This document shows positions 20,095 through 48,969 of a stretch of 55,443 nucleotides of DNA, one piece after another. Position numbers and translations under genes: made by a program. This stretch comes from Halanaerobium saccharolyticum (GTDB lineage Bacteria; Bacillota; Halanaerobiia; Halanaerobiales; Halanaerobiaceae): NCBI RefSeq assembly GCF_003053565.1, contig NZ_QAXS01000021.1, positions 1-55,443 of the forward strand, given 5' to 3'. The notes beneath the pieces are model-generated. The model searched no databases. It worked only from the letters and a program-made list of their open reading frames with translations, and had not been told where the DNA came from. Each line of letters opens with the position of its first letter. The first letter of the stretch is position 1.

Positions 20095-20200
20095 CGGGTG
20101 AAGGCTGGATGAGAGACCCTAGATGGCGCCGAAGGAGCAAGGGAGACCGAAACTCTCAGGCAAAAAGAATTCAGCTGGACGTAACTCTGGACATAGCAAA
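20095..20200 (+). ncRNA. Glycine riboswitch (single recognisable aptamer)
   Basis: Conserved glycine-aptamer core: GGATGAGAGACC, then GGCGCCGAAGGAGCAA, then AACTCTCAGGCAAAAAGA and GGACGTAACTCTGGA. Only one full aptamer is visible between promoter and terminator, rather than the common tandem pair. It precedes gcvT and a transcription terminator, so glycine binding should allow read-through into the cleavage operon. Confidence 0.93.
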
Positions 20201-20277: not shown

Positions 20278-21351
20278 ATGAAAAAAACTCCACTCAATCA
20301 GGTACATAAGAATATGGGAGCAAAAATGACTGATTTTGGCGGCTGGGAAATGCCGGTAGAATATACCGGTATTATTGAAGAACATAAGGCTGTCAGAAAT
20401 AAATGCGGTCTTTTTGACGTCTCTCATATGGGAGAAATTCTTGTCAGTGGTAAAAATGCTAAAAAATCGCTGCAGAAAATCATTGCAAATGATTTAAATA
20501 AGTTGGAAAAAGGTAAAATTATTTATACGCCAATCTGTAAAGAAGATGGGGGAATTATTGACGATCTGCTTGTTTACTCTCTGCAGGATGATCAGTTTTT
20601 ACTGGTTGTAAATGCCTCTAATATTGAAAAAGATTATAACTGGATAAAAGAACACCTGCTTGAAGATACGACTGCTGAAAATTTATCAGCTAACTATGCG
20701 ATGGTGGCACTACAGGGACCAAACTCTAAAAAAATATTGACTCAATTAACAGATATTGATTTAAACAGCCTCAGTTATTACAGGTTTAGAGAAGCGAAAG
20801 TCGCCGGTGTTAATATGATAGTTTCACGGACTGGCTATACAGGTGAATTAGGTTATGAACTTTATTTTGAGCCTGAAGAAGCTGAAAAAATGTGGGATGA
20901 GTTAATGGAAGCAGGTTCAGATTTTGGCCTGCAGGCCTGTGGTCTCGGCGCTAGAGATACTCTGAGGCTTGAAAAAATATATGCTCTCTATGGTAATGAT
21001 ATAGATGAAAGCACCAACCCTTTTGAGGCTGGATTAAGCTGGACAGTTGAACTCGACAAAGGAGATTTTATTGGTAGAAAGAAATTAATAGATATAAAGG
21101 AAAACTGCTGTCAGAGAAAACTAACACCATTTGTAATCAGGGGTAGAGGTATGGCTCGCCACGGTTATGAAGTCTATGCTGGAGAAGAAAAGATTGGTGA
21201 AGTAACCAGCGGCAGTTATTCTCCTACATTAGAAGAAGGAATAGGCCTGGCTTACCTAAAAAGCGAACATACGGAAGTAGGTAGTGAGATTGAGATCAAA
21301 GTGAGAAATAGAAAAATCAAGGCTGAGGTAGTAAAAGGTCCTTTTGTCTAG
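20278..21351 (+). CDS. gcvT: Glycine cleavage system T protein (aminomethyltransferase)
   Basis: Transfers the methylene group from the H-protein-bound aminomethyl to tetrahydrofolate, releasing ammonia. 357 residues, usual length. Starts with KTPLNQVHKNMGAKMTDFGG and contains GLFDVSHMGEI, DDLLVYSL and the folate-site stretch SRTGYTGELGYELYF. First gene of gcvT-gcvH-gcvPA-gcvPB, under the glycine riboswitch. Confidence 0.98.
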   Translation: MKKTPLNQVHKNMGAKMTDFGGWEMPVEYTGIIEEHKAVRNKCGLFDVSHMGEILVSGKNAKKSLQKIIANDLNKLEKGKIIYTPICKEDGGIIDDLLVYSLQDDQFLLVVNASNIEKDYNWIKEHLLEDTTAENLSANYAMVALQGPNSKKILTQLTDIDLNSLSYYRFREAKVAGVNMIVSRTGYTGELGYELYFEPEEAEKMWDELMEAGSDFGLQACGLGARDTLRLEKIYALYGNDIDESTNPFEAGLSWTVELDKGDFIGRKKLIDIKENCCQRKLTPFVIRGRGMARHGYEVYAGEEKIGEVTSGSYSPTLEEGIGLAYLKSEHTEVGSEIEIKVRNRKIKAEVVKGPFV

Positions 21352-44429: not shown

Positions 44430-46628
44430 ATGAAAAATTTTTTTAAAGAAGAAAATAAGATTATAATAATTTATGTAATTATCGGTTTTGCCTGGATATA
44501 TTTTTCAGACCGACTTTTACTTGTTTTAACAGGTGATTTGGAGCAGTTTAATATCCTTCAGTCTTTTAAAGGTGCCTTTTATGTTCTGGCAACTGCAGTT
44601 TTGCTTTATTTACTAATTAAACGCTATGCTGATAATTTAAAAGAACAAAAAAGCGAGGTTAATTCTTTAAATGAGGAGCTAACTGCATATAATGAAGAGC
44701 TGCTAGCAATGAATGAGGAACTGGACCAGTCTTTAGATGAGTTGAACGAATTAAACGAAAAGTTTATTTCAATGATTAATCTGGTTTCAGATCTGGATAA
44801 GCAGAACAACTTAGATCAGGTTGAATTTCTGTCACATTTATTAAAACAGGCAGTTCAAATTGTGCCGGAAGCTGATTATGGTAAGGTATATCTGATAGAA
44901 GATGGAGTCTGCAGATTTGTTGATGCTGTGGGTCATGACATTGAAATTTTAAAGAATCTAAAAATCGATCAGAAAAGTTTATTTCATTATGATGAAAAAG
45001 GTATTTTTACTTCTGAGCAGTATTCAATAAATTTAGATAAAATCCCGCGAAAACATCAGGAGGAATTTGAAAAGGCTTTAAAAGAAATTAAAGATTCTCT
45101 GTTTATCAATATCAATGTTAATGAAAGTGTTGTCGGCAGAATTTCTCTGGATATAGCTGCCGAAAGCAGTGCCAAATTTAGAGATACCACCAAGAAAGTT
45201 CTTCAGTCTTTTGCAACTTTAGCTTCTTCCTTTTTTGCTTTTAAGCGATTTGATAAACTGCAGGGAGAATTCACCAAAGAATTAATTTCATCTATAATTC
45301 AGATTTTAGAAATTTATGATAGTTATACAAAAGGTCATTCGGAAAATGTAGCTAACCTGGCAGCGGGGGTTGCCGAAAAATTAGGGCTTTCCCGCAAAAT
45401 GGTTGTCGATACTTACTGGGCAGGAATGGTCCATGATATCGGTAAACTTTTAGTTCCAGTCAGTGTTTTAAATAAAAAGGGAAGACTTACAGAAGAAGAG
45501 TATCAGCTGATTAAAAAACATCCGGTCTGGGGAAGCCAGGCTCTTGCAGATTCTGCTGTTTTAAAGCATATTTCAAAATATATTTTATATCATCATGAGC
45601 GCTGGGATGGCAGCGGTTATCCTGAGGGAGTAAAAGGAGACAGGATACCACTGGTCTCTCAAATTATTGCTGTTGCTGATGCCTGGGATGCAATGAGATC
45701 AGAAAGATCTTATAGAAAGCCCTTAACAAAAGAAGAGGCACTGGCAGAGATTGAAAATAACAGAGGCAGCCAGTTTTCACCTGAGGTTGCTGATAAATTT
45801 TTAGAACTTGTATCAAAAGATAATTTTTCTATCAAAAATTCTGCAATAGATTCTAGAAGCAGCAAATCTTCTCTCAGTTTTAACGAAGATTATTTTGAAT
45901 ATCTTTTTGAAGAAAGTGCAGAAGGAATTGTAGTCTTAGACAGTGAATTTAGAATAATAAAAAGCAATCAGTATTTTTTAGATATGTTTGATTATCAAAG
46001 GTATGAAGTTTTAGACAGACACATTAAAGATGTTGTGGTTCCTGGAGAAAAAAGTGATGAGACTGAAAAGTTTATGGAGCTTGTTAAAAGTGGGGAAAGA
46101 GTTAATGCCAGGTCATTTAGAGAAGACAGTAGTGGCGAAAAAGTAGAAGTTTCTATCCAGGGTTTTCCCATTTCACTGGCCCGAGGGAAAACAGGGTATT
46201 ATATAATTTATCAGGATATAAGCGAATTTAGAGATTTAGAAAGAAAATACTTTAATTCACAGCAGAAATACAGAGCCTTATTTGAAAACGAAGATATTAT
46301 TATTCTAATTATTGACCCCGAAACAGGTCAAGTAGTTGATGCTAATCCAGCAGCTGAAAACTTTTATGGCTGGAGCAGGACTGAATTGAAGTCAAAAAAG
46401 ATATCAGAGATCAACTGTTTAAGTCCAGCTGAAATAAAGGCAGAAATGGAAAATGCTAAAGCAAATAATAAAAATAGATTTTTATTTAAACATCAATTAG
46501 CCTCAGGTGAGATTAAAGAGGTTGAAGTTTACAGTCAGCCGATCAATTTTTCAGAAAAGGAATATCTATATTCGATAGTTCATGAGTATAATAAAAAGGC
46601 AGCAAGAAAAGCAGAATTAGTTAACTAA
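44430..46628 (+). CDS. Membrane HD-GYP protein with PAS domains
   Basis: A 732-residue sensor. Two hydrophobic segments (about 13-30 and 48-64), then a coiled coil rich in NEEL repeats (80-115), a GAF-like region (115-270), an HD-GYP domain (290-465) with HSENVANLA, MVHDIGK and HHERWDGSGYP, then two PAS domains (about 480-590 and 605-720). HD-GYP proteins commonly hydrolyse cyclic di-GMP; the motif is intact. Unusually, the sensors lie after the catalytic domain. Near a putative c-di-GMP riboswitch (48697-48906). Confidence 0.88.
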   Translation: MKNFFKEENKIIIIYVIIGFAWIYFSDRLLLVLTGDLEQFNILQSFKGAFYVLATAVLLYLLIKRYADNLKEQKSEVNSLNEELTAYNEELLAMNEELDQSLDELNELNEKFISMINLVSDLDKQNNLDQVEFLSHLLKQAVQIVPEADYGKVYLIEDGVCRFVDAVGHDIEILKNLKIDQKSLFHYDEKGIFTSEQYSINLDKIPRKHQEEFEKALKEIKDSLFININVNESVVGRISLDIAAESSAKFRDTTKKVLQSFATLASSFFAFKRFDKLQGEFTKELISSIIQILEIYDSYTKGHSENVANLAAGVAEKLGLSRKMVVDTYWAGMVHDIGKLLVPVSVLNKKGRLTEEEYQLIKKHPVWGSQALADSAVLKHISKYILYHHERWDGSGYPEGVKGDRIPLVSQIIAVADAWDAMRSERSYRKPLTKEEALAEIENNRGSQFSPEVADKFLELVSKDNFSIKNSAIDSRSSKSSLSFNEDYFEYLFEESAEGIVVLDSEFRIIKSNQYFLDMFDYQRYEVLDRHIKDVVVPGEKSDETEKFMELVKSGERVNARSFREDSSGEKVEVSIQGFPISLARGKTGYYIIYQDISEFRDLERKYFNSQQKYRALFENEDIIILIIDPETGQVVDANPAAENFYGWSRTELKSKKISEINCLSPAEIKAEMENAKANNKNRFLFKHQLASGEIKEVEVYSQPINFSEKEYLYSIVHEYNKKAARKAELVN

Positions 46629-47421: not shown

Positions 47422-48375
47422 ATGGAAGAAATCGAAGGTAAAAAGAATAAATTTCCTTTAAACCCCAACAATATTATTATAAATAGAAAAGACGAATATC
47501 TTGATAAAGTGGAAAAAAGATCGACACAGCTCTTCTTGATTGCTAAAAATGACAACCTTGAGGTTATCAAACAGCATATTACAGCTGATAAGACTTTTCA
47601 GATAGCAGCTGGAGAAGAGAATAGTTTTGAACTTTTTTATATTTTAGAAGGAACTGTTGCTTCTGAGGATGAAAAAATTACTTTAGCAGCTGGAGATTCA
47701 ATTACTGCCAAAAGTGGTGAAGAAGAAAAATATTTTAAGACTTTAACTGAAGTAACTTTGCTATATATTTCATCTACACCTATTTTTGCCAGTGAGCAGA
47801 AGAAAATTAATGAGCTTTTAGCACTGAATGAACAAATCGCTGATAAAGATACCGAAACCCATGACCACTGTGATCGCCTGCAGCGATTAAGCAGACTAAC
47901 AGCAAAAGAACTTGACTTGAGTGAAGAAAAATTATTTAATTTAGGTTATGCTTCCTTTCTTCACGATATTGGTAAGGCAAAAGTACCGAAATCATTGTTG
48001 CAGAAACCTGGAAGATTAACAGAGTCAGAATGGGAGATTATGAAAAAGCATGCTAAATGGGGTAAGACAATTCTGCTTGAGCGTTTTAGTAATAAATATT
48101 TTGAACAGGTAGCTGAAATCATATATCAACACCATGAGCGTTATGATGGTCAGGGTTATCCTCAGGGTCTAAAAGGTGATGAGATTTTAATCGAAGCGCA
48201 GATCTTAACAGTTGTTGATGCTTATGATGCTATGGTTTATGAAAGGCCCTATCAGAGGGCTCTTACAAGAAAAGAGGCTCTGGCAGAAATTAAGAGAGAA
48301 AAGGGTAAACAGTTTGCGCCGCGAGCTGTAGAGGCTTTTTTAAAAGCAGAAAAGAAATTTGTTGGTCAGAGTTAA
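47422..48375 (+). CDS. Cupin-HD-GYP protein
   Basis: 317 residues. An N-terminal cupin-like small-molecule or cation domain (about 50-125, with AGEENSFELFYILEGTVASE) followed by an HD-GYP phosphohydrolase domain: HDHCDRL near 146, FLHDIGKAKVPKSLLQKPGR near 178, HHERYDGQGYP at about 236-246, and VVDAYDAM. Intact motifs suggest cyclic di-GMP hydrolysis. No membrane segment. Its convergent neighbour is the secreted protein under the tandem riboswitch. Confidence 0.88.
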   Translation: MEEIEGKKNKFPLNPNNIIINRKDEYLDKVEKRSTQLFLIAKNDNLEVIKQHITADKTFQIAAGEENSFELFYILEGTVASEDEKITLAAGDSITAKSGEEEKYFKTLTEVTLLYISSTPIFASEQKKINELLALNEQIADKDTETHDHCDRLQRLSRLTAKELDLSEEKLFNLGYASFLHDIGKAKVPKSLLQKPGRLTESEWEIMKKHAKWGKTILLERFSNKYFEQVAEIIYQHHERYDGQGYPQGLKGDEILIEAQILTVVDAYDAMVYERPYQRALTRKEALAEIKREKGKQFAPRAVEAFLKAEKKFVGQS

Positions 48376-48386
48376 AAACAAAAAAT

Positions 48387-48416
48387 CTACTGCTTACTTT
48401 TAAAAGTAAGCAGTAG
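48387..48416. terminator. Bidirectional terminator (perfect palindrome)
   Basis: A 30-nt perfect palindrome, half-site CTACTGCTTACTTTT, lies between convergent genes. On the minus strand it is followed by T-rich sequence (A-run at 48377-48385 on the plus strand), so it mainly ends the secreted-protein gene and may serve both. Confidence 0.85.
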
Positions 48417-48434
48417 AAGTAATAAATTAAAAAT

Positions 48435-48680
48435 TTATTTTCCCGCAACAGCTATTGGGTTAGTTGGCTTGCCATTTTCTTTACCATTCTCGTTAACCGC
48501 AGGAAGGAAATGAATTTCTTTTACTCCATCATTGTTATCATCAACTAAAACCCTTACGCCAGCTTTATTGTTGGGAGCCTGTCCTTCACCTGTAGTTGTT
48601 TTTGTTTCAGCTATAGTCGCTGCTGAAAAAGAAACTAACATCACCATTACAATTGCTAAAACTACTGATTTTTTAAACAT
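48435..48680 (-). CDS. Small secreted protein with EF-hand-like loop
   Basis: 81 residues, unrecognised. Signal peptide MFKKSVVLAIVMVMLVSFSA with likely cleavage near ...IAE (about residue 25). The mature part is polar and contains VLVDDNNDGVKEIHF, a D-x-N-x-D-G-type Ca-binding loop as in dockerins/EF-hands. AGGAGG 6-7 nt before ATG. Behind a ~250-nt leader with tandem c-di-GMP-I aptamers. Possibly a surface or matrix protein controlled by c-di-GMP. Confidence 0.8.
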   Translation of the reverse strand: MFKKSVVLAIVMVMLVSFSAATIAETKTTTGEGQAPNNKAGVRVLVDDNNDGVKEIHFLPAVNENGKENGKPTNPIAVAGK

Positions 48681-48696
48681 TTTTTTGCCTCCTTTT

Positions 48697-48760
48697 GTAA
48701 CCCGGCTATCTCTTTTTGAGACCCGTGGCTTTGTGTCTCCATCTCCCGATGGATTTACCC
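48697..48760 (-). ncRNA. Cyclic di-GMP-I (GEMM) aptamer 2, next to the gene
   Basis: Minus strand: GGGTAAATCC, hairpin CCATC-GGGA-GATGG, then ACACAAAGCCACGGGTCT and GAGATAGCCGGGTTAC. This follows the consensus (GGCAAACC / GNRA hairpin / GACGCAAAGCCACGGGTCTAA / GATAGCCGGGTTGCC) closely. P1 pairs GTAA with TTAC. Its 3' end abuts the ribosome-binding site at 48682-48690. Tetraloop is GGGA, a GNRA type. Confidence 0.85.
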
Positions 48761-48823
48761 CTACTGGAGGAACAGAATAAAAAGTTTTATTTTTTTGAGA
48801 AACAAAAATCCTGTTCCTGCTTC

Positions 48824-48906
48824 GGCAGCCAGGCAGCCATAATCAACAAAAAAGTGATCTTAGGCTCCAGAGCTTTGCGCCCTTTAGCTTTCGCTCAAAG
48901 GTTACC
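48824..48906 (-). ncRNA. Cyclic di-GMP-I (GEMM) aptamer 1, upstream
   Basis: Minus strand: GGTAACC, hairpin CCTTTGAGC-GAAA-GCTAAAGG, GCGCAAAGC, then the canonical 11-nt GAAA-receptor halves CCTAAG (48859-48864) and TATGG (48837-48841), ending in CTGGCTGCC. GGTA pairs with TGCC for P1. This is a full GEMM-I fold. The 3' end can alternatively form a hairpin (CTGC-CGAA-GCAG with CCTG/CAGG) followed by ATTTTTGTTT, i.e. a possible terminator overlapping the aptamer. Confidence 0.88.
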
Positions 48907-48940
48907 TTTTTCGTGACTGGAACACTGAAACTATATACTA

Positions 48941-48969
48941 AGAATAGCATAATTTTGAAAAAATATCAA
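48941..48969 (-). promoter_or_regulatory. Promoter of the tandem riboswitch leader
   Basis: Minus strand TTGATA (48964-48969), 17-nt spacer, TATTCT (48941-48946), about 35 nt ahead of aptamer 1. Confidence 0.65.

Follow-up and report, generated by a model that had tools for sequence, protein, structure and literature searches.

Why should the gene of a small, apparently secreted protein lie behind two c-di-GMP-I aptamers in series, and what might its product have to do with c-di-GMP? These questions are raised by a locus in the window (the whole stretch of DNA that was analysed, 55,443 nt), where the small gene and its leader are read from the minus strand, close to two HD-GYP genes on the plus strand. 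The features of the locus are:

48941-48969, minus strand: weak candidate promoter from a consensus scan (TTGATA, 17 nt, TATTCT, with TG)
48919-48924, minus strand: strand A (UGUUCC), which may form the 5' half of an extended P1 of aptamer 1; complementary to GGAACA in strand B, with weak statistics
48821-48916, minus strand: aptamer 1, c-di-GMP-I, with GAAA loop and 11-nt receptor (RF01051, 52.4 bits)
48811-48818, minus strand: strand B (AGGAACAG), 3' of aptamer 1; by complementarity a possible partner of A or D
48766-48775, minus strand: strand D (CUGUUCCUCC), 5' of aptamer 2; complementary to B, its CCUCC also to the ribosome-binding site, as P1 of aptamer 2
48693-48769, minus strand: aptamer 2, c-di-GMP-I, with GGGA loop and no 11-nt receptor (RF01051, 61.7 bits)
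48688-48692, minus strand: ribosome-binding site GGAGG of the small gene, from the sequence
48435-48680, minus strand: gene of the 81-residue secreted protein (open reading frame and homologues)
48438-48461, minus strand: codons of the conserved C-terminal octapeptide NPIAVAGK (alignment and pattern search)
48386-48417, minus strand: terminator-like hairpin between the two convergent genes (14-pair stem and T-run)
47422-48375, plus strand: cupin-HD-GYP gene, convergent partner of the small gene (HD_5, weak Cupin_2, Foldseek matches)
44430-46628, plus strand: second HD-GYP gene nearby, with PAS domains (HD_5 and PAS by domain search); at most a candidate member of the system

The initial annotation had proposed two aptamers at 48697-48906. 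The Rfam covariance model of the c-di-GMP-I class (RF01051, gathering cut-off 35 bits) recovers both on the minus strand and above the cut-off (E 1.9e-7 for aptamer 1 and 1e-9 for aptamer 2), and the proposed interval begins and finishes within the two matches. The alignments also bear out the structural details that had been given: one aptamer has a GAAA loop and an 11-nt receptor (CCUAAG/UAUGG), and the other has a GGGA (GNRA) loop with GCCACGGGUCU and is without the 11-nt receptor. At presumed positions 20, 47 and 92 both aptamers carry G, A and C, respectively, which is the c-di-GMP type if the positions are assigned from the Rfam alignment (an imperfect Vc2 sequence used for comparison showed A at 92). 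We take G20, A47 and C92 to be the ligand contacts of c-di-GMP-I aptamers, in numbering as well as in meaning. Two complete aptamers of one class stand ahead of one gene; this is a tandem riboswitch, probably for a single shared ligand, and we regard the leader as a genuine tandem c-di-GMP-I riboswitch with predicted ligand binding. The start of the small gene lies 12 nt past aptamer 2. The candidate promoter is weak, with nine promoter-like sites observed in the 2-kb region and 6.6 expected. The 3.2-Mb genome of the window contains seven RF01051 matches, six of them over the cut-off. Another c-di-GMP-I riboswitch of this genome, at locus L004 (1032-2109), has a curlin-repeat gene (PF07012, E 1.3e-15) on one side and on the other an ORF that is signal-peptide-like.

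The arrangement recurs. A search of 61 genomes with the small gene gave matches in six, and five of these (window, G003, G018, G021 and G024) contain the real gene, at six loci with both aptamers in each; the match in G013 is a 574-residue frame and was rejected. The G003 contig C222 is 97.4% identical to the window over 2,326 bases. With the cupin-HD-GYP gene as bait, 14 of 59 genomes of the class were found and eight further loci were checked: two (L151 and L152) have tandem aptamers and the gene, one (L153) has a single aptamer and a longer secreted protein ending in DPLHVYSW, and five showed neither aptamer nor gene. A profile search pointed to G020, G040, G047 and G049. Searching the 59 class genomes for the octapeptide followed by a stop gave 13 exact matches, which are 12 gene loci and one short chance frame (in G045). 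Among 398 genomes of the phylum the octapeptide pattern matches in eight; those in the window and in G018 are real, and the other six look unrelated. The gene is therefore counted at 12 loci in 11 genomes, window included, with two aptamers ahead of it at eight of the 12, and the two-aptamer arrangement in front of this gene spans three families of the order. In G040, G047 and G049 one aptamer precedes the secreted gene and another the HD-GYP gene. The G020 locus has one aptamer and, judged by eye, a shortened second: aptamer 1 is kept (L108, 1060-1263; 42.5 bits), and the second appears reduced to a hairpin, which retains pairing with the ribosome-binding site. Upstream of both tandem leaders of G024 lies a ComFB-like gene (L111, 1973-2275, PF10719, E 5.1e-27; L114, 2363-2668, by eye); we take ComFB to be a c-di-GMP receptor.

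What, then, could two aptamers do that one could not? Sharper, "digital" control, which the initial annotation named as something that tandem arrangements can give, usually presupposes two independent switches. The tandem c-di-GMP-I arrangement itself is well known and ordinary: 347 doublets and 12 triplets are reported in a survey in which c-di-GMP-I tandems outnumber all others (PMC9481103), enrichment is described for c-di-GMP and T-box tandems, with tandem c-di-GMP-I riboswitches said to act independently (PMC12452182), and the Bc3-5 triple tandem of Bacillus thuringiensis is described as a set of independent transcriptional ON switches with terminators (PMC4759541). The window leader shares with these, Bc3-5 included, at least two complete aptamers in series in one leader. 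It differs from Bc3-5 in that (i) no terminator was found between the aptamers, (ii) the ribosome-binding site occupies the P1 place of aptamer 2, and (iii) one strand could serve both aptamers.

This strand, CUGUUCCUCC (D), lies between the aptamers and can, by its sequence, pair with either of two alternative partners, the 3' flank of aptamer 1 (B) or the ribosome-binding site (as P1 of aptamer 2), a design that looks new. The reading that we prefer, at about even confidence, is a translational OFF switch in which c-di-GMP acts through both aptamers and the aptamers are coupled; both the direction and the coupling are inferred, with uneven support from folding. Without ligand, B would pair with D and leave the ribosome-binding site freer. 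When c-di-GMP is bound, P1 of aptamer 1 (A:B) would capture B, and P1 of aptamer 2 (the CCUCC of D with GGAGG) would mask the ribosome-binding site, so that c-di-GMP would reduce synthesis of the secreted protein. Competition between B and the ribosome-binding site for D should make occupation of either aptamer promote that of the other, and less protein should be made with c-di-GMP; because CCUCC and GGAGG flank aptamer 2 near the P1 place, binding there should hide the ribosome-binding site. A shared switching strand, if real, would couple the aptamers directly and is open to mutational test.

Complementarity was compared with shuffled sequences in three leader versions (window, G016 and G020), which are related and not fully independent, and all folding was done at 37 C with standard parameters. 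B:D complementarity exceeds that of the shuffles (p 0.0065 for the window, 0.0003 for G016 and 0.043 for G020; Fisher 1.4e-5), as does that of D with the ribosome-binding site (D:SD) in combination (6e-4); CCUCC and GGAGG bracket aptamer 2 roughly at the P1 place. A:B complementarity is weak (Fisher 0.063 over the three versions; 0.012-0.013 for G018 and for G024a, one of the two G024 leaders). Among the control pairings there is no signal for A:D (0.85) or B:SD (0.77), while A:SD gives 0.014. For D, ribosome-binding sites taken from other versions are roughly as good partners as its own, and in one case a non-cognate B:D pair (-17.2) is stronger than the cognate one (-12.8). A 16-base linker motif occurs at 36 places with at most one mismatch, and the six exact occurrences are the known tandem loci. 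At L004, a single c-di-GMP-I aptamer elsewhere in the genome, the ribosome-binding site also takes the P1 position (p 0.006).

Folding of the eight tandem leaders divides them. With both aptamer cores imposed, the probability of B:D is 0.97 in the window, G003 and G021 and 0.98 in G018, and it is low in G024b (0.00), G024a (0.19), G034 (0.14) and G016 (0.15); B:D is thus the dominant fold in four of the eight leaders, and those four are two close pairs. When A:B is imposed, the free ribosome-binding site drops in the window (0.36 to 0.03), G003 (0.21 to 0.03), G018 (0.55 to 0.00) and G021 (0.46 to 0.00). The change is from 0.41 to 0.35 and from 0.22 to 0.20 in the G024 leaders and from 0.13 to 0.08 in G034, and in G016 there is a rise from 0.15 to 0.27. 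Once A:B is imposed, D:SD reaches 0.99 in G018 and G021, 0.71 in G034 and 0.26 in G016; in the window and G003 it stays at 0.05 and 0.16, and other letters of the linker cover the ribosome-binding site. The coupling between A:B and D:SD amounts to -2.0 kcal/mol in the window, -2.8 in G003, -4.0 in G018, -2.8 in G021, -2.4 in G024b, -0.2 in G024a, -1.5 in G034 and -5.6 in G016. When the half of D that serves only B is replaced, mean coupling becomes -0.14 to +0.48 in the window, G003, G018, G021 and G024b and +1.2 in G024a, and persists in G034 (-1.4) and G016 (-3.5). Our confidence in the coupled OFF switch had been slightly better than even; we lowered it because D:SD stays low in the window under imposed A:B and because the leaders of family f4 show little B:D.

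The main alternative is that the leader holds two independent riboswitches for the same ligand, each with its own expression platform, giving digital, pseudo-cooperative control; the first could be transcriptional and the second translational, or both could be ON switches. We consider this a substantial possibility, though appreciably short of an even chance. It is the standard reading of tandem c-di-GMP-I arrangements (PMC9481103, PMC12452182, PMC4759541), it is compatible with the four of eight leaders in which B:D is not dominant, and relatives do carry terminator-like hairpins between the aptamers. In the window itself, however, a terminator scan found none between the aptamers, and the A/U-rich 3' arm of a transcript that ends at the T-run is locally paired at only 0.04-0.05; full-length folds contain a weak A/U hairpin nested in B:D. 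Moreover, the linker strand is complementary to both platforms, which argues against their independence. Terminator-arm pairing is about the same with and without the aptamer core, and one alternative fold would use the binding-site strand, as is described for the ON switch Bc4 (PMC4759541). The SAM-II/SAM-V tandem, which has another ligand and other aptamer classes, is reported to exert dual transcriptional and translational control (PMC4759541, PMC9481103); as a same-ligand pair, the relatives of our leader may likewise act at two levels. It is very improbable that the downstream aptamer senses a different ligand (as a c-di-GMP-I-GGC variant or a 3',3'-cGAMP sensor) and so makes a two-input gate: permissive settings do assign aptamer 2 to RF03167 (c-di-GMP-I-GGC), and its counterpart at L111 scores 59.4 bits, but that of the window reaches 56.2 bits with a cut-off of 59 and has ACAAA where the RF03167 consensus has GCGAA (A in place of G at what we take to be the intercalating position), for which the GGC assignment was dropped, and the position that we take to be A in cGAMP sensors is G.

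The coupled OFF switch, if correct, would set the level of a protein whose pairing with another gene is the firmer part of our results. The protein has an N-terminus that by eye resembles a signal peptide, and no Pfam or NCBIfam family reaches its cut-off, in agreement with the earlier description of a small secreted protein outside known families; weak family matches of the window protein and its relatives all fall below the cut-offs shown. A proposed Ca-loop-like motif fared less well: DDNNDG is not conserved among the homologues, and a Ca-binding loop was dropped from consideration. In an alignment of 11 Halanaerobiia sequences (G003, identical to the window, was omitted) good conservation is limited to the signal peptide and the C-terminal octapeptide, and the middle is variable. 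The octapeptide reads [N]NP[I/L]xVAGx, in which N, P, V, A and G never vary; K3, V11 and A24 are likewise invariant. It is NPIAVAGK in the window and NPILVAGS, NPIRVAGS, NPIVVAGN, NPIDVAGA, NPLYVAGE or NPITVAGD in relatives; residues 4 and 8 vary, and residue 3 is I or L. In wider relatives the C-terminal motif is mostly [I/V]DPxxV. The small genes of the window and G003 have no differences in 243 coding bases, and those of G018 and G021 differ by eight amino-acid-changing and five silent codons. We propose that the 81-residue protein belongs to an unnamed family, predicted to be secreted and marked by a fixed C-terminal motif, which looks new.

The annotation had also mentioned two HD-GYP genes close by, and the domain search finds both. 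It is the cupin-HD-GYP gene, of the two, whose link to the small gene is conserved: all 12 octapeptide genes of the class adjoin one, although at one of the 12 loci (contig C101 of G024) the HD-GYP gene is broken into several frames. Its product matches HD_5 (E 7.6e-38), and weakly Cupin_2 (20.1 bits, cut-off 27.2), and has the HD and HHExxxGxGYP motifs in alignment, which places it in the HD-GYP phosphodiesterase class with predicted activity. The structural model is of low confidence (mean pLDDT 66.3), with Foldseek matches to the HD-GYP protein 4mcw and to cupins; no relative of the cupin segment was found among PDB sequences.

Outside the class, the link extends to more distant loci. The cupin profile has matches in 16 of the 398 genomes of the phylum (3 of 15, 6 of 17 and 26 of 398 in further counts, on sets that overlap with this search), with 15 loci outside the class. 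At 13 of these 15 (12 distinct genes, that of L189 being the L187 gene again) there is an ORF ending in [D/V]P[I/L/M/P]x[V/I/L] and one to four more residues; eleven of the 13 are signal-like, and the called start of L180 is not. L182 and L188 have no ORF with the motif. The motif was written after the first 11 had been seen and was then fixed for 30 new loci, many of them from few genera and with a size limit of 180 residues (135 in the earlier round). Seventeen of the 30 fit, including L217, which lacks a signal-like start, and five more by eye (L193, L200, L201, L212 and L218) bring the number to 22; the other eight (L195, L199, L207, L208, L211, L215, L216 and L219) have no fit. By comparison, among 307 small ORFs at 100 other loci, ten fit, every one of them a further sighting of the known gene; the remaining 297, of which only eight are signal-like, give no fit.

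Gene order in the pair varies. In a set of 33 pairs, picked for having the secreted gene, both genes are on the same strand, with the secreted gene first in 24 and the HD-GYP gene first in nine, and gaps of -26 to 285. At nine Halanaerobiales loci the genes are convergent, and in G040, G047 and G049 they run in the same direction. As far as the flanks reach, a c-di-GMP-I riboswitch precedes the secreted gene at five of the 13 loci (L175-L187) and at two of the 30 new loci, so that it seems to be a local addition to a wider pair. We conclude, with more confidence than for the leader, that the secreted protein is half of a conserved, unnamed pair with the cupin-HD-GYP gene. The pair looks new: among the open-licence papers listed in literature searches none concerns it, and nothing was found there on Halanaerobi c-di-GMP riboswitches or on a c-di-GMP-I riboswitch with a small secreted protein. 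Pairing with a predicted phosphodiesterase suggests that the leader probably ties the secreted product to the cell's own c-di-GMP control, and makes the pair a candidate for how some bacteria link the outside of the cell to c-di-GMP. At L104, L105 and L106 (three genomes of family f10) the cupin-HD-GYP gene has a c-di-GMP-I riboswitch of its own, so the predicted phosphodiesterase may also be under c-di-GMP control. Family f10 also has five second cupin-HD-GYP loci (L154-L158), with no riboswitch over the cut-off and no octapeptide ORF; four of them (L155-L158) share a similar 34-residue membrane-like ORF.

The function of the secreted protein is a more speculative matter. In Rap-Phr pairs, the gene of a cytosolic phosphatase-type enzyme lies beside that of a small secreted protein, and in RpfG-type signalling an HD-GYP phosphodiesterase is linked to an extracellular signal. 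Our pair resembles the former in gene layout, with the gene of a small secreted protein next to that of an enzyme (and at some loci following it almost without a gap), and the latter in a phosphodiesterase possibly tied to an extracellular signal. It differs from Rap-Phr in that no precursor family is over its cut-off and one long relative is predicted to be folded, and from RpfG in the cupin-like domain before HD-GYP and in a peptide as the candidate signal. The boldest idea, which we rate as unlikely, is that the protein is a pre-signal whose C-terminal octapeptide, once released, is imported and sensed by the cupin domain of the HD-GYP partner. Such a circuit would be autocrine and Phr-like and would act on c-di-GMP; in these bacteria the tandem riboswitch would close the loop. 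Among pheromone precursor families, the best match was NF033802 (AimP; E 0.12, two of 11 members), and none in the NCBIfam listing is over the cut-off for the window protein.

The protein may instead be one of the usual products under c-di-GMP control, for example a component of the matrix or surface, with the HD-GYP link reflecting shared regulation only; we give this somewhat less than an even chance. A long relative (L178) is predicted to form a helical hairpin with C-terminal strands (mean pLDDT 82.6), which would suit a structural protein; comparison of its model with the PDB gave nothing below E 0.001. Another c-di-GMP-I riboswitch of the genome lies directly downstream of the curlin-repeat gene. 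On the other hand, conservation in the 11 Halanaerobiia sequences is confined to the signal peptide and octapeptide, and the pairing persists in both gene orders, in convergent arrangement and at many loci without a riboswitch.

The window contains one riboswitch of another class. A glycine aptamer (RF00504, 58.7 bits; a single aptamer over the cut-off) lies at 20098-20181 on the plus strand, directly before ORF 20278-21351, which is presumably the gene of the glycine-cleavage T protein.
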